The notes beneath the pieces were generated by a model that worked only from the letters and a program-made list of their open reading frames with translations, made no database searches and was not told the origin of the DNA. DNA of 64,000 nt from the NCBI GenBank assembly GCA_035307765.1, contig DATGHU010000006.1, forward strand, positions 1 to 64,000, read 5' to 3'. Source of the stretch: a bacterium. GTDB taxonomy: Bacteria; Sysuimicrobiota; Sysuimicrobiia; Sysuimicrobiales; Segetimicrobiaceae. A program made the translations under genes and the position numbers. This document shows positions 1,572 to 32,156 of the stretch, in pieces (position 1 is the stretch's first letter; every line of letters begins with the position of its first letter).

Positions 1572-2274
1572 GTCGGCGTCGGCCCACGGCGTCCGGACCC
1601 GTCTCATTTCGAGTTCTCGCCCTGACCCTTTCCTTGAATTGTCCGGTAAACTTGAATATCTCCTCCTTTATCGTCTTAAGACCGTCATATGTCGTGTGAG
1701 AGTAACTAAGAATGTCCTTGATGTGTGTTTCGCCCGGGAGGTCCCCGTCCAAATGAGATGCGTAAAAAGACATGGCCGGTTCGCCCGCCTCAACCATGGC
1801 CCTCAGATTCGCCGTACGTTGCCGAGCGTCGAATATTGACGCTTGAATCTCATCCGGCAGCAGTCGAAGCAACCCGGATGCAGACAGATTTTCATAAGCC
1901 GCAACGGATAATCCGCCGGCTAATTTGGCTGCCCAACCGAGAAGGATCACCCTCCTATGGCGGTCGGCGATGAGCGCCTTGTTTAGTGCCTCGATTACCT
2001 TGGGCACGGTCTGCTGGTTATCGCGAATCTCAATCTTCAGTCGATCAAGGTGAACAAGCAGGTATTCCTGGTCACGACTTTCTTCTAGTGACCTTTCCGT
2101 GCTCAGTGTAGAATGCGCGACTTTTCTCTCGATTCGGTAAGCTAAATACGCCCCTGCAAGCACGCCAAAGAAGGTTACCACAAAGTCTGGCCATTTCTCA
2201 ACGAGCTGGATGTACCATGGGACCTGGGACATTGAATATGGTATGTTCCCAAAATTATAGAGATAGGGACTCAT
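1564..2274 (-). CDS. hypothetical single-pass membrane protein
   Basis: About 236 residues when started at the ATG at 2274, which has a strong GGGGGGAGG ribosome-binding site six bases upstream. A hydrophobic segment at roughly residues 23-45 (WPDFVVTFFGVLAGAYLAY) precedes a charged, probably helical cytoplasmic part. This layout, a short N-terminus, one membrane helix and a long soluble region, is common in uncharacterised bacterial proteins. It lies just downstream of, and in the same direction as, the 2349-2615 gene. The 3' end overlaps the end of the convergent DUF2283 gene by 8 bases. Function unknown. Confidence 0.6.
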   Translation of the reverse strand: MSPYLYNFGNIPYSMSQVPWYIQLVEKWPDFVVTFFGVLAGAYLAYRIERKVAHSTLSTERSLEESRDQEYLLVHLDRLKIEIRDNQQTVPKVIEALNKALIADRHRRVILLGWAAKLAGGLSVAAYENLSASGLLRLLPDEIQASIFDARQRTANLRAMVEAGEPAMSFYASHLDGDLPGETHIKDILSYSHTTYDGLKTIKEEIFKFTGQFKERVRARTRNETGPDAVGRRRPK

Positions 2275-2348
2275 GATACCTCCCCCCCTCTCCCGCTTCT
2301 GGTGTGCCTCACCTCCCCCTTGCCCACGACGGTGCCGGGGCACAGGTC

Positions 2349-2615
2349 TTATCCACGGTCAAAAATATCTCGGACTCTGCCATGATTGTCCGCGACATAG
2401 ATGTAGCGCATAGCATCCTGGCTATTCGCATTGTACTTCGTCATGTCTTTGATAGCTTTAGCTTCTGCCGCGTCAAGGTTCTCGACCTCAAATTCCCACT
2501 CCACCAACCGGATACCTTGGCTCGCTAGGGTCTCCTTAGCGTCCAGGTCCTCCCTAGTGAGGGTATGAATCCGGAATCTCCCACCCCTAACGAACACCCC
2601 TCTGCACATTTCCAT
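2349..2615 (-). CDS. hypothetical protein
   Basis: An 88-residue acidic protein. The ATG at 2615 was preferred over an upstream ATG because GGGAGGAA lies six bases before it. The sequence reads like a compact alpha/beta protein with the helix-forming stretch ENLDAAEAKAIKDM, followed by MRYIYVADNHGRVRDIF, which could be a terminal strand-turn-strand. No family recognised. Together with the membrane protein at 1564-2274 it may form a two-gene unit on the minus strand. Confidence 0.5.
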   Translation of the reverse strand: MEMCRGVFVRGGRFRIHTLTREDLDAKETLASQGIRLVEWEFEVENLDAAEAKAIKDMTKYNANSQDAMRYIYVADNHGRVRDIFDRG

Positions 2616-3042
2616 CGGTTCCTCCCTTCCGCAGCATTGCGGCAAGCCCAACTGGCATTTCCCAGCGGAGACTGTCTATTAAGCGAACCGGTTTACCGGC
2701 CACTCTGTGAGTTCCCTTCTGGGCATCCTGAGGATAACTCACGGACATATGCGCGCCGTCTCGGAAGTGACCCCCGAAACAGCGATAGCTCCCCCGGGGC
2801 AAATTGTTCTTTTTTGCCAGCCTGCCTACTTTCCCACACGCGCCGCGTCTCGTCCCTGCGTATAGCCATGCCGGTGGTTCAGCTTTGACAACCAATAATT
2901 ACATGCAAGAGGGTCGGGGGCTGCAAGGGCACAACGGAGACTACTCGGATTTTCCTTGGGTTACTAACGTGGCCGTGCCTTTATTCGGAGAACCCGGACC
3001 GCACAAATACGATGCTTAGCGGGATAAGTACTGCATCCATTC
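2616..3042. other. intergenic, nothing convincing
   Basis: Overlapping open frames on both strands lack ribosome-binding sites and coding-like composition. No repeat, RNA or clear promoter was identified. Confidence 0.45.
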
Positions 3043-3228
3043 TCACGTTCGACCACGGCCCGAGCCAAGGCTTCGGCCCAACACGATTGCCACGATCACC
3101 CAAAACGCCGCGGCTGCCCCGGGTAATCTCGCCAATCGATCGTCTTCAAGTTGTCCCCCACTTCCCGCCGATTTCCGGACCGGTGGTGTGATTCCCACAT
3201 TTCGCAGGGCCGTTTTGACCCTTGTCAC
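3043..3228 (-). CDS. small membrane-anchored protein, coupled to upstream gene
   Basis: A 61-residue frame starting at a GTG that overlaps the stop of the upstream gene (GTGA, 3225-3228). A polar N-terminus is followed by a hydrophobic segment of about 17 residues (LPGAAAAFWVIVAIVLG) and a Gly/Arg-rich tail, which would give a tail-anchored topology. No family recognised. The four-base overlap and the membrane segment are the only evidence, so a chance frame cannot be excluded. Confidence 0.35.
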   Translation of the reverse strand: MTRVKTALRNVGITPPVRKSAGSGGQLEDDRLARLPGAAAAFWVIVAIVLGRSLGSGRGRT

Positions 3229-3407
3229 TTCGGCGTGGTCTTCTTCACCTTGGCCCAGCGGGCTTTGGAGGCCTTCCTGGCAAGGGCTTGGCGTTCCTGC
3301 TGGTCCAGCCTCTTGATCCTGGCCGGACCACCAATCCGCCCTCCCTGGCGTCCAAACTCGACGAACTGCTTTCTGATCTCTTCGGGAAGATTCATTTTCC
3401 TTGCCAT
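3225..3407 (-). CDS. small basic protein with RKASKARW tail
   Basis: A 60-residue, highly basic protein. It contains the pattern GRQGGRIGGPARIKRL followed by QERQALARKASKARWAK, which occurs in many short bacterial and phage proteins and has been likened to nucleic-acid-binding tails; no activity is known to me. It is divergent to the serine recombinase, and its 5' end lies next to the recombinase promoter, so the two may share a control region. Its stop overlaps the start of the small frame at 3043-3228. Confidence 0.6.
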   Translation of the reverse strand: MARKMNLPEEIRKQFVEFGRQGGRIGGPARIKRLDQQERQALARKASKARWAKVKKTTPK

Positions 3408-3437
3408 GCACCAACGATACCCTCTACGGATTTCTCA

Positions 3438-3466
3438 TGTCAATCCCTGACCCCCTCTGGTATAAT
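3438..3466 (+). promoter_or_regulatory. probable promoter of the serine recombinase
   Basis: A perfect TATAAT -10 element lies at 3461-3466, 27 bases before the ATG at 3494. The -35 region is poor (TGTCAA at about 3439-3444). The divergent small gene starts at 3407, so this short interval must hold control for both directions. Confidence 0.5.
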
Positions 3467-3493
3467 AATCGCATTGGACAGGGGGTTACGGTG

Positions 3494-4156
3494 ATGAGAG
3501 TGGGAGTTTACGCAAGAGTGAGTACGTCTGACAAGGACCAGAACCCCGAGACCCAACTGCTACCCTTGCGGGAGTTTGTAGAGAGCCAGGCGGGGTGGAC
3601 GGCCGTCGGGGAGTACATGGACCACGCTTCGGCCACCGACCTGAGAGGCCGTGTGGCGTGGGGGCGGCTCCTGGATGGCGCCAGCAGGCACAAGATTGAC
3701 CTCGTCCTAGTCTGGAGGCTGGACCGGGCCTTCAGGAGCGTTCTGGACGCCTCTACGACGCTGGAGCGCCTCCGAGGCTGGAACGTGGGTCTCCGCTCGT
3801 TTAGCGAGCCGTGGCTGGACACAACCTCGCCCTTCGGGGAAGCCCTCTACTATATCACCGTCGCTTACGCCCAGTTGGAACGAGGCATCCTGAGCGAGAG
3901 AGTTCGGGCAGGTATGGACAGGGCGAAACGCCAGGGGAAGCGGCTCGGGCGTCCCAGTCGCATCCAGGATGCGGAGTTCCTTTGCGAGTGGGAGGGGCTC
4001 GTACCCGCCCTCTACGCCGGACAGATCAGCCGAGCGGAAGCCGCCCGGCGGTTGGGCGTCGGACGGGCTACGATTGGGCGGCTCCTGGCAGGTGTCCGAA
4101 ATGGGAGTCACGTAGAGCCCTCCGAAAGCCGTACTCTGGGCGGCTCCGGTAAGTGA
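3494..4156 (+). CDS. serine recombinase (resolvase/invertase type)
   Basis: A 220-residue site-specific recombinase. The resolvase catalytic domain begins at once with GVYARVST, where Arg8 and Ser10 match the conserved Arg and nucleophilic Ser of the family. The LDR-type segment WRLDRAFRS follows at about 74-82, then the E-helix region with SERVRAGMDRAKRQGKRLGRPS. A C-terminal HTH (ISRAEAARRLGVGRATIGRLL) completes the small-recombinase layout. I chose the ATG at 3494 over an in-frame ATG 93 bases upstream because the domain starts here and a TATAAT box lies between. It probably belonged to a mobile element now mostly lost; no resolution site was identified. Confidence 0.85.
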   Translation: MRVGVYARVSTSDKDQNPETQLLPLREFVESQAGWTAVGEYMDHASATDLRGRVAWGRLLDGASRHKIDLVLVWRLDRAFRSVLDASTTLERLRGWNVGLRSFSEPWLDTTSPFGEALYYITVAYAQLERGILSERVRAGMDRAKRQGKRLGRPSRIQDAEFLCEWEGLVPALYAGQISRAEAARRLGVGRATIGRLLAGVRNGSHVEPSESRTLGGSGK

Positions 4157-4450
4157 TAATTACCTGCCCGTAAGGAACTCCTTTTGGGCCGGGGTAGCCG
4201 TTGTTCGTTCAGGCCTTCCAACCGGACAGTTCGTAGGCCACCTGATCTCGGGCGTCCGGGACTGCTACCTTTTTCCTCGCTGCAACCTCGCGCCAAAGAG
4301 GCTGAGTAGCCCCGACAAAGTCCGGTTCATCGCCTGTTCGCAGAACGGGCCGAATACTGGTCATTGGACGGTCTAACTATCCCCGGATGCATTTTTTGTG
4401 GGACGAATTTGCGAATCGGGTAGAGTGACGGTTTATCCGGAGGGAAAATC
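4157..4450. other. intergenic, junction of a broken element
   Basis: Between the recombinase and the transposase tail I find no complete gene. The missing 5' part of the IS481-type transposase is not present in any frame here, so the element is truncated on this side. Confidence 0.45.
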
Positions 4451-4621
4451 ACCGAGCTGTGGCGCGGGGCCTTTCGCCGGACGTACTACTGGAGCGTCGC
4501 GCAACTGGAGCAGGACCCGCAGGCGTACCTGCGCTTCTACAACCGGGACCGATCGCACCAAGGCTATCGGCTCCACGGTCGCACGCCGGCCGCGGTCTTT
4601 CTGGCCCCGAAGGCCAGCTGA
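4451..4621 (+). pseudogene. C-terminal fragment of an IS481-type transposase
   Basis: This frame encodes about 56 residues of the end of an integrase-core transposase: ELWRGAFRRTYYWSVAQLEQ, then AYLRFYNRDRSHQGYRLHGRTP and a stop. The YNRDRSHQGY block is the typical tail of the DDE integrase fold in IS481 and related families. The catalytic DDE residues and N-terminal HTH are absent, so it cannot be functional. A probable right terminal repeat follows at 4639-4663. It shows that an IS once sat between the recombinase and the ABC operon. Confidence 0.75.
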
Positions 4622-4638
4622 GCGCGAATGAGGACGAT

Positions 4639-4663
4639 GGTTGGAGGACAAAAGTGTCAACAC
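4639..4663. repeat. probable right end of the IS481-type remnant
   Basis: Directly behind the transposase stop lies a GGTTGGAGGACAAAAG block ending in TGTCAACAC. In IS481-like elements the terminal repeat reads outward as TGTTGACACTTT..., which fits this strand. The terminal 12 bases recur at 113-124. No matching left end was found near the fragment. Confidence 0.5.
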
Positions 4664-4726
4664 CTCGCCCATACTGGATAAACTAGCAGACGCGCCGGGA
4701 GACCCTGGGTGTCTCCAGATCCTTAA

Positions 4727-4903
4727 CTAAATACAGCTAAGCTGGCCCAGGTTTTCTTCCTGCGCGAGCCAATTGGTAAAATCGAGCGCTTCGTGGCTCC
4801 AAGCGTTGCGTAAGTCTACCTTCTGCAGCTTCGCAAGAAGCTTCCTGGTATACGCCACGATGTAAGTCTCTTCGAGAGTGTATGATGAGGTTCCCTCAGA
4901 CAT
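4727..4903 (-). pseudogene. N-terminal fragment of a DUF4268-like protein
   Basis: A 58-codon frame from an ATG at 4903 encodes AKLQKVDLRNAWSHEALDF followed by TNWLAQEENLGQLS and then a stop. This block closely resembles the start of DUF4268-type proteins (KLEKVDLR.. W..EA.DFT.WLAEEENL), which are nuclease-associated and usually several hundred residues long. Here it ends after 58 residues and no continuation is seen downstream, so I read it as a truncated gene. It sits in the IS-scarred interval between the recombinase and the ABC operon. Confidence 0.5.
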
Positions 4904-5136
4904 TAGTGCTAACGGTTTGCTAACGGGACCGCCACGAAGGGCGAAGAATCGATAAGAAGAGCCGCGAAACAGATCGGCGAAATTGCTTCATAACCGCGGA
5001 TTTCATGAACGGGCGAGGCAGGACGGTAACCTCCGGGCCGATCGATTAGTTTGTGGGCCGAATCCCCTTGGGACCGACTAGACAGTTACATAGAATCATG
5101 GGCCAAATCCTAGGACCGAGCGAAGCCGCACTGGAT

Positions 5137-5928
5137 TCATCCCGTGATGTCATGGGACAGAATCTTCGCAAGAAAAGCTTTGGCACGCTCAGTCTCCGGG
5201 TTTGCAAAGAAGGTCGTCGCCTTAGCGAACTCCAAAATTTCGCCTCGATCCATGAACATTATTCGGTGCGCGACGCCGCGGGCAAACCCCATTTCGTGTG
5301 TAACAATTACCATCGTCATGCCTTCTTTGGTCAAGGCGGCAATTACCTGGAGGACCTCGTTAATCATCTCGGGGTCTAACGCTGATGTTGGTTCATCGAA
5401 GAGCATGATCTTAGGTTGCATAGCTAGGGCACGTGCAATCGCCACGCGCTGCTGCTGTCCTCCAGACAGATAGGCGGGGTGGACGTTCGCTTTATCTGCT
5501 ACCCCTACTCGTTCCAATAGCGACATCGCTAGATCGCGCGCTTCTCGCTTGGATAGTCCCTTGACCAAAATAGGCGCTAGTGTCACATTCTCCACGGCGG
5601 TCTTGTGAGGGTACAAGTTGAAGGTCTGGAACACCACCCCTATTTCCGATTGCAGCTCCCTGAGATTGCGCTTCCACTCATCAATGGGCCGCCCAAAAAC
5701 AGAAATGGTGCCCGATTGAACCGGCTCTAGGTGATTAATGCACCGTACCAGCGTACTCTTTCCGGATCCCGAAGGGCCACAAATAACTATGACTTCGCCC
5801 GGCGCGACCGCAAAAGATACATCGCGCAGTACGTGAAGATTGCCAAACCATTTGTTTACTTTTCGGAACTCGATTGTAGGCGGCGACGCGCCTGCCGGTG
5901 CCAATCTGGCCGAAGGTTTAGACGCCAA
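5137..5928 (-). CDS. polar amino-acid-type ABC transporter ATPase
   Basis: A 263-residue ATP-binding subunit of the GlnQ/HisP type that energises import through the two permeases upstream. Walker A GPSGSGKST is at about 51-59, the Q-loop Gln at about 101, the signature LSGGQQQR at about 154-161, Walker B IMLFDEP at about 174-180 and the switch His in VTHEMGFA at about 211. The start is a TTG with a modest AAGGTCGGA ribosome-binding site. It is the last gene of the minus-strand operon 9836-5137 and the only importer ATPase in the window. Substrate assignment to amino acids rests on the permease and binding-protein families. Confidence 0.93.
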   Translation of the reverse strand: MASKPSARLAPAGASPPTIEFRKVNKWFGNLHVLRDVSFAVAPGEVIVICGPSGSGKSTLVRCINHLEPVQSGTISVFGRPIDEWKRNLRELQSEIGVVFQTFNLYPHKTAVENVTLAPILVKGLSKREARDLAMSLLERVGVADKANVHPAYLSGGQQQRVAIARALAMQPKIMLFDEPTSALDPEMINEVLQVIAALTKEGMTMVIVTHEMGFARGVAHRIMFMDRGEILEFAKATTFFANPETERAKAFLAKILSHDITG

Positions 5929-6067
5929 CGGTTCCGACCTTCGGCCAGCAAGTCGCTATGTCCCAAATGATCGTAACGACTTCGTCCTCGGGTCTCGAAT
6001 ATGCCACGGGGGCCGAGTAATCTCTTCGTGAGGTCATAATGAGAGTATCCTAGCGATTTTCGTCCTT

Positions 6068-7321
6068 TTAGACCACCGCGCCACAGAGATCGATTATCGC
6101 TGCCGCATAAATTTTCGCGGCACACACTAGCTTGTCGACTTCCACATATTCGTCCGGGAGACTCGACGTGAATCGTCCCGGCCCCATGACAACGCCGTCT
6201 CGAATTCCGGCCTCCTGCATGAACCCCGCATCGGTTCCCGTGAACATATAGGGCTCGATCGGTCCCAATGGGGGCTCGGCTCCCATGATCTCTCGATAGG
6301 CGTCGGCCAGGGCCTTGACCGTGGCCGAATTTTCCGGCGACTCAAACGCTGGCTTTCCACAAGAACATGAAAGCTCGAATTGAAAACCCGGGGTGCCCTT
6401 CTGCATGTCCCGTAGCAATTTTTCGAAACACTCTAGGGTCGTTTGGAAATGCTGGTTGGGTGGTACGCGAACATTGATGACAGCGGTGCAAAAAGAGGGG
6501 GTGTTGGCCGGCACCTCGAGCAACTCCCGTCCGAGTCCGCCTCTTATTGCACCAAGATGATAAATTGGCAAGCCTCGATATTGTGGACGATCCTCATATT
6601 CGAGCCACCCACCTGCAGGGATCTTCTGGTGCATCGGACCAAGTCGACCCACCAGCTGACACATCAGGGCCGCTGCGTTTACGCCACGATCGTGGGAGCC
6701 CGAATGACCCGCTCGTCCCAATATGTTCACTCGGATATACTGAGGGCCAGAATTGAGCGTGAGAATTCCGAGTTCAGTTGGCTCCGTATTGATGAACCTG
6801 CCTGTCTTGATGTTCTTGGACATCAGATCCATTGAGCCAATGCCACTTTGGCATTCGCTTACTACCAGTGCAACGAGAACATCGCCTCGAAGCTTTAGAC
6901 CGGCTTCCTTTATCGCGTAGGCTGCATATACCATTGCGGAATCCGATGCCTTCATGTTTGAAATACCATTGCCGAATATCTTACCCTCGAAGACGTCGCC
7001 GCCATAGGGGTTTCGGGTCCAACCGTCGGCAGGCGGTAGAGTGTCCATGTGTCCAGTCAGCATAAGGCTCTCGCGCTCGCCTGAACTTCGAATCCACCCC
7101 AAGACGTTATTTTGATTGGAGGATACGCTCGATAGCTCGGTCTCGAGTCCCAAGCTACGCATTCGCTGGGCGCATGTCTCGGATATTGCGGCCTCGTTAC
7201 CTGTGACGCTAGGAATCCTAGCGATGTCGCGTGTGAACTCAACCAACTCGTTGCGTTTGGCGTCCAATATCTTGAGTACGCTGTTGAGCATTGCGCCTTT
7301 ATTCGGCTGCGTTTGGGACAT
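6068..7321 (-). CDS. M20-family metallopeptidase/deacylase, variant metal site
   Basis: A 417-residue M20 amidohydrolase (ArgE/DapE/CPG2 superfamily), probably cytoplasmic and acting on the imported amino-acid or peptide derivative. The start at 7321 was chosen because AAGGGAG lies upstream. The GHMDT motif (His91, Asp93) is intact. The usual bridging-Asp motif DMK reads NMK (Asn122), and the usual DEE reads SEC (Glu156-Cys157), so two standard zinc ligands differ. The pattern looks subfamily-wide rather than a local mutation, because fold and dimerisation regions are well kept, for example GRAGHSGSHDRGVNAAAL. It sits between the permeases and the ATPase in the same operon. Confidence 0.85.
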   Translation of the reverse strand: MSQTQPNKGAMLNSVLKILDAKRNELVEFTRDIARIPSVTGNEAAISETCAQRMRSLGLETELSSVSSNQNNVLGWIRSSGERESLMLTGHMDTLPPADGWTRNPYGGDVFEGKIFGNGISNMKASDSAMVYAAYAIKEAGLKLRGDVLVALVVSECQSGIGSMDLMSKNIKTGRFINTEPTELGILTLNSGPQYIRVNILGRAGHSGSHDRGVNAAALMCQLVGRLGPMHQKIPAGGWLEYEDRPQYRGLPIYHLGAIRGGLGRELLEVPANTPSFCTAVINVRVPPNQHFQTTLECFEKLLRDMQKGTPGFQFELSCSCGKPAFESPENSATVKALADAYREIMGAEPPLGPIEPYMFTGTDAGFMQEAGIRDGVVMGPGRFTSSLPDEYVEVDKLVCAAKIYAAAIIDLCGAVV

Positions 7322-7352
7322 GTATCCACACTCCCTTCTTCGTGTCTCACCC

Positions 7353-8057
7353 CTACACTGCTGTATCGAAACTGTGTACTTTCGGTGCCCACTGCCACCG
7401 TTTCTCAAGTTTCCGACCCAATCGCGTCAGACCGTAGCTGAAGCAGAAATACACGGCACCAACAAAGCCGAAGATTTGCATCGGGTAGATTAGGGAGCGG
7501 TCATTCAACAGTACGCCAATTCGCATGAAGTCCAGGACGCCGAATAGGGCAACTACAGATGTGTACATAAACAGCGTCACAAACCGATTGACCAAGGCTG
7601 GGATAATGGCTCGCACGGCCTGAGGTAGGATGATATGGTGGAGGATGTTGAGCCCGCCGAGCCCTGTAGCATAACCAGCTTCCCTCTGCCCTCGATGTAC
7701 CGCCTGAATGCCTCCCCGAATGTCCTCCGCCATGTAACTGCCATGATAAACAGCTAGTCCTATCGAGAGGCTCTGGAAGGGCGATAAATCAATACCGGTA
7801 AGTCGGGGCAACAGGAAGTACATCCAAAACAAGAAAACGAGCGAAGGTATGCCTCTAACGAGCATCACTAGAACACGGGCGATCCATCTTATCGGTGGGA
7901 AAGGCACCAGCGACATAGAACCCAATGTCAGGCCGATAGCGAGCGCTGTTGCTCCCGTGTAGACGCCTAGGTATACAGTAAGGATTAGGCCCCCGATTGG
8001 GCCCTGCGGATAAGTGCCCAGCAAGAAGTAACGCCAACTCTCCAGGATCACGGGCAT
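7353..8057 (-). CDS. amino-acid ABC transporter permease
   Basis: A 234-residue inner-membrane permease of the HisM/GlnP family. Several hydrophobic segments surround the cytoplasmic EAA loop (EAGYATGLGGLNILHHI followed by ILPQA), which contacts the ATPase. The ATG at 8057 follows the preceding permease gene by 20 bases. With the neighbouring permease it should form a heterodimeric channel fed by the binding protein at 8949-9836. Confidence 0.92.
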   Translation of the reverse strand: MPVILESWRYFLLGTYPQGPIGGLILTVYLGVYTGATALAIGLTLGSMSLVPFPPIRWIARVLVMLVRGIPSLVFLFWMYFLLPRLTGIDLSPFQSLSIGLAVYHGSYMAEDIRGGIQAVHRGQREAGYATGLGGLNILHHIILPQAVRAIIPALVNRFVTLFMYTSVVALFGVLDFMRIGVLLNDRSLIYPMQIFGFVGAVYFCFSYGLTRLGRKLEKRWQWAPKVHSFDTAV

Positions 8058-29389: not shown

Positions 29390-30106
29390 GTGCATCCCGA
29401 GTTGTGCGGTGATTCGAAGCCGGAAGGTGAACACCAAGCGCGATATCGGCGACTTTTCGCCCGCCGACTGCTTCGTTGGTTCAGGGCTCACGGCCGGCGT
29501 TATCCGTGGCGCGAAACGCGAGAACCATACCGGATCTTTGTGGCGGAGTTCATGCTTCAGCGCACGGGGGCCCAGCAGGTTCTGCCGGTCTACATGCAGT
29601 TCGTCAAGAGGTTCCCTACACTACATGACGCCGCAGAGGCCGACGGAAAGACACTTCGAGGCATTCTTTGGCCTTTGGGAAGGGTCGAAAGGTACAAGAT
29701 ACTCCGGAGGGCCTTGCTATATCTGGCCGGAGAGCTCAAGGGGAAACTTCCATCCTCACTCAAGAAGCTACTCAAGATTCCGGGGGTTGGTCCCTACACA
29801 GGTCGCGCCGTTTTGGTGTTTGCACACCACCGGCGACTTGGCCTCTTTGACCCAAACATCTATCGCGTCATCGGGAGAGTTTTTGGGTTCGTATCTACAA
29901 AACAACGGCCGCACACCGATTCTTCGATGTGGAGGACGGTGGACGACCTGATGCCGAAGGGACGCAGTCGGGAAATGAATCTCGCCTTGCTCGACCTCGC
30001 CTCGACGATCTGTCGGACGCGGAGGCCGATTCATGAGAAGTGCCCCATGCAGGACATTTGTGCTTTCTATGGGAGGGCACGGAGTGAAGCCACACACGTT
30101 CATTGA
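29390..30106 (+). CDS. MIG-type T/G mismatch DNA glycosylase (HhH-GPD)
   Basis: A 238-residue MutY/EndoIII-fold DNA glycosylase. The N-terminal block PYRIFVAEFMLQRTGAQQV matches MutY. The helix-hairpin-helix reads IPGVGPYTGRAV: Tyr136 stands where EndoIII has catalytic Lys120 and MutY has Ser, as in MIG.Mth, which removes T from T/G mispairs. The catalytic Asp is Asp154 (LFDPNIYRV). The cluster motif is C208-x6-H215-x2-C218-x5-C224, with His replacing the second Cys. Start is GTG. The 3' end overlaps the methyltransferase start by 23 bases. It likely repairs T/G formed by deamination of the methylated C. Confidence 0.8.
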   Translation: MHPELCGDSKPEGEHQARYRRLFARRLLRWFRAHGRRYPWRETREPYRIFVAEFMLQRTGAQQVLPVYMQFVKRFPTLHDAAEADGKTLRGILWPLGRVERYKILRRALLYLAGELKGKLPSSLKKLLKIPGVGPYTGRAVLVFAHHRRLGLFDPNIYRVIGRVFGFVSTKQRPHTDSSMWRTVDDLMPKGRSREMNLALLDLASTICRTRRPIHEKCPMQDICAFYGRARSEATHVH

Positions 30107-31112
30107 CCTGTTCTGCGGGGCGGGGGGTATGGCTCTTGGTTTTGTTCAGGCGGGGTTCAAATCTGTCTATGCGGTGGACTTTGATAAGCTGGCGGCGGAG
30201 ACGTACAGGAGAAACTTCAAGCACGAAGTCTGGGACGGGCCTATTGAGAGTCTAGATCGCATTCCTGTGAAGGCAGAGATCATCATCGGCGGTCCTCCGT
30301 GCCAAGGGTTCTCCCCGTTAGGGAAAATGATCCCGCTGGCGGAACACCGCAGCATGAATAAGCTCTGGCGTCACTACATGCGGATCGTCGAGCAGGTCAA
30401 CCCTACCGTGTTCATCGTGGAGAATGTGCCGGAGTTCCTGCGATCGTTGGAGTTCAAGTCCCTTGAGCGGAAGGCGACGGAACTGGGATACGAAATCGCG
30501 GCCGCGGTGCTAAACGCGGTTGAATACGGTGTCCCCCAGCAGCGAAAGAGGACATTCGTAGTGGCGGTGAAGGGCGGCACTCCGCGCCTTCCTCCCCCCA
30601 CGACCGGGAGAATGACGGTCCGTGATGCCATTGGCGATCTGCCTCTGCAACCGACGGGCGTCGATTGGCACATTGGTCGGAATCCTACTCCGAAGTCGGT
30701 CAAGCGATACAGGTGTGTTCCGCCCGGTGGGAATCGGTTCGATCTCATAAAGAAGAGGCCCGATCTGGCTCCCCGTTGCTGGCTCAACAAGCCCACCGGG
30801 AGTACGGATGTCTTCGGACGCCTGGAATGGGACAAACAGGCTCTGACGATTCGCACGGAGTTCTTTAAGCCGGAGAAGGGTAGGTATCTCCACCCTCAGG
30901 CAGACCGGCCGATTACCCATCTAGAAGCGGCGAGGCTTCAGACGTTCCCGGACGACTTCGAATTCTACGGGTCCAAGATTCAGGTGGCGCGTCAGATCGG
31001 CAATGCGGTTCCCCCCAAGTTGGCACGTGCGGTTGCGGCTGAAGTAAGGGCGATACTCGAAGAGATCAAGCAGCGGAGGATGGGATCGGAAAAACAGCTG
31101 GCACGAATCTAG
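30084..31112 (+). CDS. C5-cytosine DNA methyltransferase
   Basis: A 342-residue 5-methylcytosine methyltransferase. Motif I is FIDLFCGAGGMALGF, motif IV GGPPCQGFSPLG with catalytic Cys73, motif VI VENV, motif VIII QQRKRTF and motif X RQIGNAVPPKLA. The short target-recognition region between VIII and IX suits a single 4-6 bp site, which cannot be read out. I chose the GTG at 30084 because GGGAGGG sits six bases upstream; an ATG at 30033 would overlap the glycosylase further. It is translationally linked to the glycosylase and precedes an HNH nuclease, so it is the modification half of an R-M unit. Confidence 0.95.
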   Translation: MKPHTFIDLFCGAGGMALGFVQAGFKSVYAVDFDKLAAETYRRNFKHEVWDGPIESLDRIPVKAEIIIGGPPCQGFSPLGKMIPLAEHRSMNKLWRHYMRIVEQVNPTVFIVENVPEFLRSLEFKSLERKATELGYEIAAAVLNAVEYGVPQQRKRTFVVAVKGGTPRLPPPTTGRMTVRDAIGDLPLQPTGVDWHIGRNPTPKSVKRYRCVPPGGNRFDLIKKRPDLAPRCWLNKPTGSTDVFGRLEWDKQALTIRTEFFKPEKGRYLHPQADRPITHLEAARLQTFPDDFEFYGSKIQVARQIGNAVPPKLARAVAAEVRAILEEIKQRRMGSEKQLARI

Positions 31113-31155
31113 GAGGTCTCGCCCGTTGGCAGAGGCGCGGAAAACCCCAAAATGG

Positions 31156-31189
31156 GGGCCTGGTAACGAAACCAGGCCCTCTGTCTTTT
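31156..31189 (+). terminator. terminator-like hairpin between methyltransferase and nuclease
   Basis: GGGCCTGGT (31156-31164) pairs perfectly with ACCAGGCCC (31171-31179) around a 6-base loop, followed by TCTGTCTTTT. It should terminate or attenuate transcription before the nuclease, letting methylation build up first. Confidence 0.75.
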
Positions 31190-31214
31190 CTCGCGGCAAT
31201 GCGGTGGAGCGGAG

Positions 31215-32156
31215 TTGAGTCAGCCTGATCCAGAGACCGCGAACCTCGTCAAGCGTATAACAGAACTTCTCCGTGAACTGGAAAAGCCCCTCGCAAGGGA
31301 CCCGTCGGAAATCCGTCGGGAGGTTTTGCTCCTCGCAGAGGCCGTGCATAATACGAGGGATTTGGGACGAGTTCGTCTCAAGGCCGTCACCTCCGCGAGG
31401 GGTGCGACCCAACGAATACTCGCGTATATGAAACTCTTCGAGAGCGAGGTCATTGAAGGCAAGGAACTTCAGGTTGTTTCAGGTATTCAAGAGTTCGCCC
31501 GACGGGTTCGGGAACTGAGGGTGCAGGATGGCTACAAAATCTCAACCGGAAGCATTGCGGCAGGTAATGTGCGTGAGGATCTGCGGCCGGATCAATATGT
31601 GTTGGAGAGCACCGATCCCGACACAGAGGCGGCCAGAAAGTGGCAGGTCGCCAACACGATTCGACGGCAGGGAGGGTCGGGAAAGAGCAGGATTCTGGCC
31701 TTCCTTCTTGCGAATGTTCGGCGCCCTGTGACAGGAGAACAGCTGGCGTACGTGGCAGGCCGGGTTAGGGAGGTAGGCCGAAGAACTCGTGAGCTGCGGA
31801 CCGAAGACGGCTATCGGGTTGCTACTCGGTTTACGGGCCGCCCGGATCTTTCGAGTGAGTTTTATGTTCTCGAATCCGAAGACCAACTACCAGACCATGA
31901 TCGACATATCTCCGACACCGTGTATGACGATGTCTTGAAAAGGGACATGAACAGGTGCAGGAATTGTGGATGGTCCGTGGAGCAGAGACGATCGGAGGAA
32001 CGCAGGCAATTCCTGGAAGTGCATCATATCGAGCATCATAAGGCTGGCGGATCGAACAACCACGAGAACCTGATAACGCTGTGCAATGTCGACCATGATG
32101 AAGTACACCGGTTGGGTATTTCAGGAAACGAGTTTTTCGGCTGGCTGCACAAATAG
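31215..32156 (+). CDS. HNH endonuclease with duplicated N-terminal module
   Basis: A 313-residue probable restriction nuclease. The C-terminal HNH domain shows RCRNCGW, FLEVHHIEHHKAGGSNNHENL and ITLCNVDHDEVHR: the paired Cys zinc knuckle, the catalytic His and the Asn and His of the HNH motif. Before it lie two related modules at about 68-131 and 160-220, each with an ILA(Y/F) helix, a VxxVREL.. or VGRRTREL.. helix, the DGY(K/R) turn and a (Q/F)YVLES end. They look like tandem winged helices for target reading. The start is TTG behind GGAG. It lies 103 bases after the methyltransferase, beyond a terminator-like hairpin. Confidence 0.85.
   Translation: MSQPDPETANLVKRITELLRELEKPLARDPSEIRREVLLLAEAVHNTRDLGRVRLKAVTSARGATQRILAYMKLFESEVIEGKELQVVSGIQEFARRVRELRVQDGYKISTGSIAAGNVREDLRPDQYVLESTDPDTEAARKWQVANTIRRQGGSGKSRILAFLLANVRRPVTGEQLAYVAGRVREVGRRTRELRTEDGYRVATRFTGRPDLSSEFYVLESEDQLPDHDRHISDTVYDDVLKRDMNRCRNCGWSVEQRRSEERRQFLEVHHIEHHKAGGSNNHENLITLCNVDHDEVHRLGISGNEFFGWLHK

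Follow-up and report, generated by a model that had tools for sequence, protein, structure and literature searches.

Deamination of 5-methylcytosine yields thymine and leaves a T:G mispair. The stretch of DNA analysed here, 64,000 nucleotides from a bacterial contig (the window), encodes a DNA glycosylase, a C5-cytosine methyltransferase and an HNH nuclease side by side, which raises the question of whether these three genes form a restriction-modification system that carries its own enzyme for the repair of this lesion.

Cassette layout and genomic setting

The initial annotation had described the three genes with their coordinates and a 23-bp overlap between the glycosylase and methyltransferase genes, all of which were confirmed from the open reading frames (Table 1). 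The three reading frames were intact, with no frameshift or stop, as were the catalytic Glu, Asp and Tyr of the glycosylase, the methyltransferase motifs and the HNH residues. The methyltransferase and HNH genes were separated by a gap of 102 bp, which contained a terminator-like hairpin and had a folding z-score of -2.0 for the region. HNH genes adjoined or overlapped their neighbors at most other loci, and the hairpin of the window differs in this respect; it is possibly a brake on expression of the nuclease.

The G+C content of the cassette was 55-58%, versus approximately 60-68% in its surroundings, and this drop is consistent with the cassette being a horizontally acquired insert. Read from their sequence, the flanking genes appeared to be metabolic: a dehydratase-like gene upstream and an enolase-superfamily-like gene downstream. 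No empty insertion site could be demonstrated because the 12 nearest relatives searched did not contain the upstream flanking gene, and no convincing repeats or tRNA marking an insertion were found around the cassette.

Table 1. Positions of the cassette genes and of the features predicted within them, numbered along the window
Feature	Position	Strand	Details
Predicted MIG-type glycosylase gene	29390-30106	+	GTG start, 238 aa
Catalytic Glu53 to specificity residue Ala61 (EFMLQRTGA)	29546-29572	+	Alignment; Val45 in MutY
Tyr136 in GVGPYT, at the Lys/Ser position	29795-29797	+	No Lys; common to MutY
Catalytic Asp154	29849-29851	+	Alignment
Specificity residue Leu198	29981-29983	+	Alignment; Leu in MIG, Gln in MutY
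His215, replacing the second Cys of the [4Fe-4S] motif (CX6HX2CX5C)	30032-30034	+	Alignment
C5-cytosine methyltransferase gene	30084-31112	+	GTG start, 342 aa
Target-recognition region of the methyltransferase, residues 195-260	30666-30863	+	Comparison with related methyltransferases
Terminator-like hairpin in the methyltransferase/HNH gap	31154-31181	+	11-bp stem, 8 G-C pairs, T-rich tail
HNH nuclease gene, putative restriction endonuclease	31215-32156	+	TTG start, 313 aa
Winged-helix repeat 1, residues 62-133	31398-31613	+	Predicted structure; weak HTH_39 matches
Winged-helix repeat 2, residues 154-224	31674-31886	+	Predicted structure
HNH catalytic domain, McrA/IscB-like	31920-32114	+	PF01844, structure match

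The glycosylase and its association with methyltransferases

Profile and structure searches placed the glycosylase close to both MIG and MutY. The best match in the PDB was MIG (1KEA, E = 4.9e-36), with MutY structures only slightly behind. It also matched the PADLOC profile PDLC03398 (E = 4e-36), a 221-residue 'nicking endonuclease' profile that has the length of MIG. The best NCBIfam profile was mutY (TIGR01084, E = 6e-50), for which the score of 170 bits was below the equivalog cut-off of 286.5. The protein of 238 residues lacked the C-terminal domain with which MutY recognizes 8-oxoG.

The specificity residues and the phylogeny were more informative. In the alignment, Ala61 and Leu198 correspond to A50 and L187 of MIG and to Val45 and Gln182 of Escherichia coli MutY, and nearly all MutY proteins from the order to which the window belongs had Val and Gln at these two positions. 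MIG in which Ala50 and Leu187 were changed to Val and Gln reportedly became an A/G enzyme, while the reverse changes in MutY gave no T/G activity (PMC2714593). In a maximum likelihood tree of 45 sequences, MutY formed a clade with support of 100/100 and the window glycosylase fell outside it, paired with the L176 protein at 100/94; the MIG-type sequences together were not recovered as a single clade. A separate, ordinary MutY was encoded on another contig of the same genome. Ala61/Leu198 and the position outside the MutY clade thus bear out the proposal of the initial annotation that the enzyme is MIG-type rather than MutY. The feature on which that proposal had leaned, the Tyr in GVGPYT, does not discriminate, because MutY carries Tyr at that position too: all aligned MutY proteins of the same order had it, except one with Ala. 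We conclude from these residues that the protein is a predicted MIG-type thymine/uracil-DNA glycosylase, which would remove T or U opposite G. Because there is no Lys at position 136, it is predicted to be monofunctional, with no lyase step. A search of approximately 690 genomes of Acidobacteriota and Desulfobacterota at a strict threshold (E ≤ 1e-60) returned no close relatives of the glycosylase.

Three of the 20 MIG-type sequences aligned (those of the window, L146 and L175), and no MutY or Nth sequence, had His where the [4Fe-4S] motif has its second Cys. All three of these His-bearing glycosylases are encoded next to C5 methyltransferases. His215 in the Fe-S motif, like Asp293 in the zinc site of the HNH domain, may be either a variant that the protein tolerates or an indication of decay.

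The genomic context of the two enzyme types was compared for 88 glycosylases from the phylum of the window, Chloroflexota, Nitrospirota and the genomes of the HNH loci described below. Only two residue classes were included, with the MIG-type class defined by Ala and a non-Gln residue at the specificity positions. A C5 methyltransferase adjoined 12 of the 14 MIG-type glycosylases and none of the 74 MutY-type glycosylases (Fisher p = 4e-13, which overstates the evidence because related sequences among the 88 are not independent). The MIG-type glycosylases beside C5 methyltransferases spanned several branches of the tree and several phyla. Of six plasmid-borne examples, five likewise had a C5 methyltransferase gene no more than a few kilobases away, the exception being that of Gloeothece. 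Ala combined with a non-Gln residue at the two positions therefore offers a sequence rule for MIG-type enzymes that have been annotated as MutY.

Several MIG-type genes were found in other settings. Two (L157 and L138, with Ala/Trp at the specificity positions) had no methyltransferase nearby and formed a small branch of their own (98/90). In a genome from the same order as the window (L133; G001:C1:115000-127000, at approximately 1700-7400), a MIG-type gene was flanked by the drmMII and drmA genes of a DISARM defence system, with matches to DrmMII (E = 4e-105), DrmA (E = 0) and DrmB (E = 3e-154). In two Chloroflexota loci (L209 and L213), a methyltransferase and a MIG-type gene were followed by a gene for a conserved protein of approximately 580 residues that overlapped the MIG gene, and this protein is perhaps a restriction component.

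The complete trio recurs, but rarely. In a Nitrospirota genome (locus L206), the glycosylase-methyltransferase-HNH order of the window was repeated, with 4-bp overlaps, and the identity to the window proteins was 66% for the methyltransferase, 50-54% for the glycosylase and 34% over 134 residues for the HNH protein. A Chloroflexota genome (locus L207) contained a rearranged set consisting of a methyltransferase different from that of the window, a short HNH gene and a MIG-type gene. The HNH proteins of both loci were shorter than that of the window, with one winged-helix repeat and 34-38% identity to it over approximately 133 residues. Co-occurrence of the three genes elsewhere, on which the initial annotation had staked its reading, was thus observed, though the window and these two loci were the only places where a MIG-bearing cassette was found.

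The HNH family, its repair partner and the predicted target

The HNH protein matched only generic HNH profiles (PF01844, E = 1.7e-9). Its predicted structure (mean pLDDT 87.5) began with a helical N-terminal part, continued with two winged-helix repeats that both carried the motif RRxRELRxxxG, and ended in an HNH domain. The closest solved HNH domain was that of EcoKMcrA, and IscB was also similar. The fourth zinc position was occupied by Asp293, where the family consensus is Cys. Short relatives of the protein matched PADLOC models of Type II restriction enzymes that span the winged helix and the HNH domain. The domain architecture points to a putative sequence-specific restriction enzyme of a two-winged-helix plus HNH family. 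A link between the winged helix and NaeI, which also has the site GCCGGC, was considered and rejected, as there was only a weak structural match (1ev7, E = 0.34, probability 0.96) and no sequence match.

Two plasmids encoded relatives of the HNH protein, and a search with an alignment that included two Vsr-linked members yielded relatives at 80 genome loci; none were found in phages or viral contigs. This is a large family, nearly always located by a C5 methyltransferase, for which there is no specific Pfam or NCBIfam model. The HNH gene was beside a C5 methyltransferase in 81 of the 83 family loci, and these neighboring methyltransferases belong to one C5 family. Vsr, the classical repair enzyme for 5-methylcytosine deamination, is a mismatch nuclease of the PD-(D/E)XK type and is unrelated to MIG. 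A vsr gene was present in 65 of the 83 loci and a MIG or MutY gene in none, with some contigs ending before any partner. No alternative repair genes were recognized among the ten flanking ORFs of the HNH loci that lacked Vsr. On a plasmid of Pandoraea oxalativorans (L009, 5557-6915), Vsr and a two-winged-helix HNH protein were fused into a single protein, encoded directly after the methyltransferase gene. The whole assembly of the genome from which the window came contained no vsr gene.

The proposal that the cassette is a restriction-modification unit is stronger because of these relatives, with a C5 methyltransferase at 81 of the 83 loci and Vsr at 65. In the window, a MIG-type glycosylase stands where most relatives in the HNH family carry Vsr. 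From this correspondence of position we infer that the two enzymes would be functionally equivalent.

The methyltransferase matched DNA_methylase (PF00145, E = 2e-64) and dcm (TIGR00675, E = 9e-55), both above cut-off. Its best PADLOC match was DruM2, and assignment to Druantia was rejected since there were no large Druantia ORFs in the flanks. The target-recognition region was 85% identical to that of L206 and approximately 67% identical to those of methyltransferases paired with NgoMIV-family enzymes. Such pairs, with methyltransferases of the window type, were present on Mycobacterium and Rhodococcus plasmids (L018 and L019), and the restriction enzyme of the Mycobacterium plasmid matched NgoMIV itself (1FIU, E = 7e-101). 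Independently of these plasmids, a relative of the two-winged-helix plus HNH family at L207 was accompanied by an NgoMIV-type methyltransferase, which shares 59% identity with the gonococcal enzyme encoded beside NgoMIV. NgoMIV cleaves G^CCGGC (PMC4081073). By analogy, these pairings suggest that the target of the window system is GCCGGC or a close relative. This target remains a prediction because the window showed no self-avoidance of GCCGGC, which was not depleted there (62 observed versus 67 expected).

Proposed function, alternatives and comparison with known systems

Taken together, these findings make it likely that the cassette was acquired horizontally and constitutes a Type II restriction-modification system that brings along an enzyme for base-excision repair, the activities being those predicted for each protein. 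The methyltransferase would add a 5-methyl group to one cytosine of a short palindrome, predicted to be GCCGGC or close to it. The HNH protein, probably dimeric, would use its two winged-helix repeats to bind this site as well and would cut it when unmethylated, so that the cell's own sites would be protected by methylation. When 5-methylcytosine at these sites occasionally deaminated to leave a T:G mispair, the MIG-type glycosylase would remove the T and, having no lysine nucleophile, leave the strand uncut. The AP endonuclease, DNA polymerase I and ligase of the host would then restore the C:G pair.

Other readings concern individual proteins. The glycosylase is very unlikely to be an ordinary MutY, acting on adenine opposite G or 8-oxoG, that lies beside a restriction-modification system by chance. 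Such a reading draws on the mutY profile being the best in NCBIfam and on MutY structures scoring nearly like MIG, but the score was below the mutY cut-off, the specificity residues were Ala/Leu and not Val/Gln, the C-terminal MutY domain was absent and the protein fell outside the MutY clade. In addition, the genome has its own MutY, and the 74 MutY-type glycosylases included none by a C5 methyltransferase. The existence of base-excision restriction enzymes such as the PabI family (PMC10273834) raises another role for the glycosylase, as a weapon that excises bases from invading DNA or as a remover of phage-modified bases. There is little reason to expect this of an HhH enzyme of the MIG group that is found, by the same methyltransferase and HNH family, in place of Vsr, an enzyme dedicated to T:G repair, and we give it hardly any credence.

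For the HNH protein, similarity to EcoKMcrA, a modification-dependent nuclease, together with a weak PADLOC match to a Type IV model, would fit a Type IV nuclease directed against foreign methylated DNA instead of the cognate restriction enzyme. Similarity of the HNH domain alone does not fix specificity, however, and the C5 methyltransferases by 81 of the 83 family members would place their own methylation at risk of attack; with short relatives also matching Type II models over both the winged helix and the HNH domain, a Type IV enzyme is improbable. The remaining reading applies to the system as a whole and takes the insert to be in decay, with at least one of its genes having lost its function. 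His215, Asp293 and the hairpin before the HNH gene could all be taken in this way, and the HNH gene was absent from the 42 remaining genomes of this phylum, which gave weak HNH-domain matches only. Decay is nevertheless unlikely given that frameshifts and stops were absent, that the key residues were intact and that the same His occurred in two other MIG-type genes by methyltransferases.

If the cassette is indeed a restriction-modification system with its own repair enzyme, then it represents a natural swap of two unrelated enzymes, Vsr and a MIG-type glycosylase, for the same lesion within one restriction-modification family. This swap permits a direct test of whether the linked genes are selected for repair of 5-methylcytosine deamination. 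A broader conjecture, which we regard as rather doubtful, is that the repair partner has been exchanged between Vsr and MIG-type enzymes more than once, that some of the recruited glycosylases belong to a recurrent class whose Fe-S cluster is His-ligated and which may be specialized for the methylated site of its own system, and that the HNH protein represents a new type of GCCGGC-cutting enzyme.

Each part of the cassette has counterparts in known systems. MutY shares the fold and the Glu, Tyr and Asp active-site positions of the window glycosylase, and differs from it in specificity residues, C-terminal domain, phylogeny and genomic context. Actinobacterial NgoMIV-family (GCCGGC) systems combine a methyltransferase like that of the window (approximately 67% in the target region) with Vsr, but their restriction enzyme is of the PD-(D/E)XK type, whereas that of the window is HNH. 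The Vsr-linked systems of a Sphingomonas parapaucimobilis plasmid and of Pandoraea oxalativorans pPO70-1 have HNH proteins 44-46% identical and methyltransferases 47-49% identical to those of the window, each of the same family; repair in these systems is by Vsr, fused to HNH in Pandoraea, where the window has a glycosylase. No description of an HNH system with either Vsr or MIG was found in the literature searched. The most similar arrangement is that of MIG (Mig.MthI) on plasmid pFV1 of Methanothermobacter thermautotrophicus, in which the gene for a MIG-type T/G glycosylase, with the same Ala/Leu specificity residues as in the window, likewise has those for a C5 methyltransferase and a restriction enzyme in its vicinity. 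The pFV1 system is archaeal, its glycosylase is 29% identical to that of the window, its gene order and strands differ, and it targets GGCC with a restriction enzyme of the NgoPII family and not an HNH enzyme. The initial annotation had regarded the coupling of the three functions as a layout without a described match, but because pFV1 already couples MIG, a 5-methylcytosine methyltransferase and a restriction enzyme, the layout in the window is a variant of this arrangement and not a new principle.
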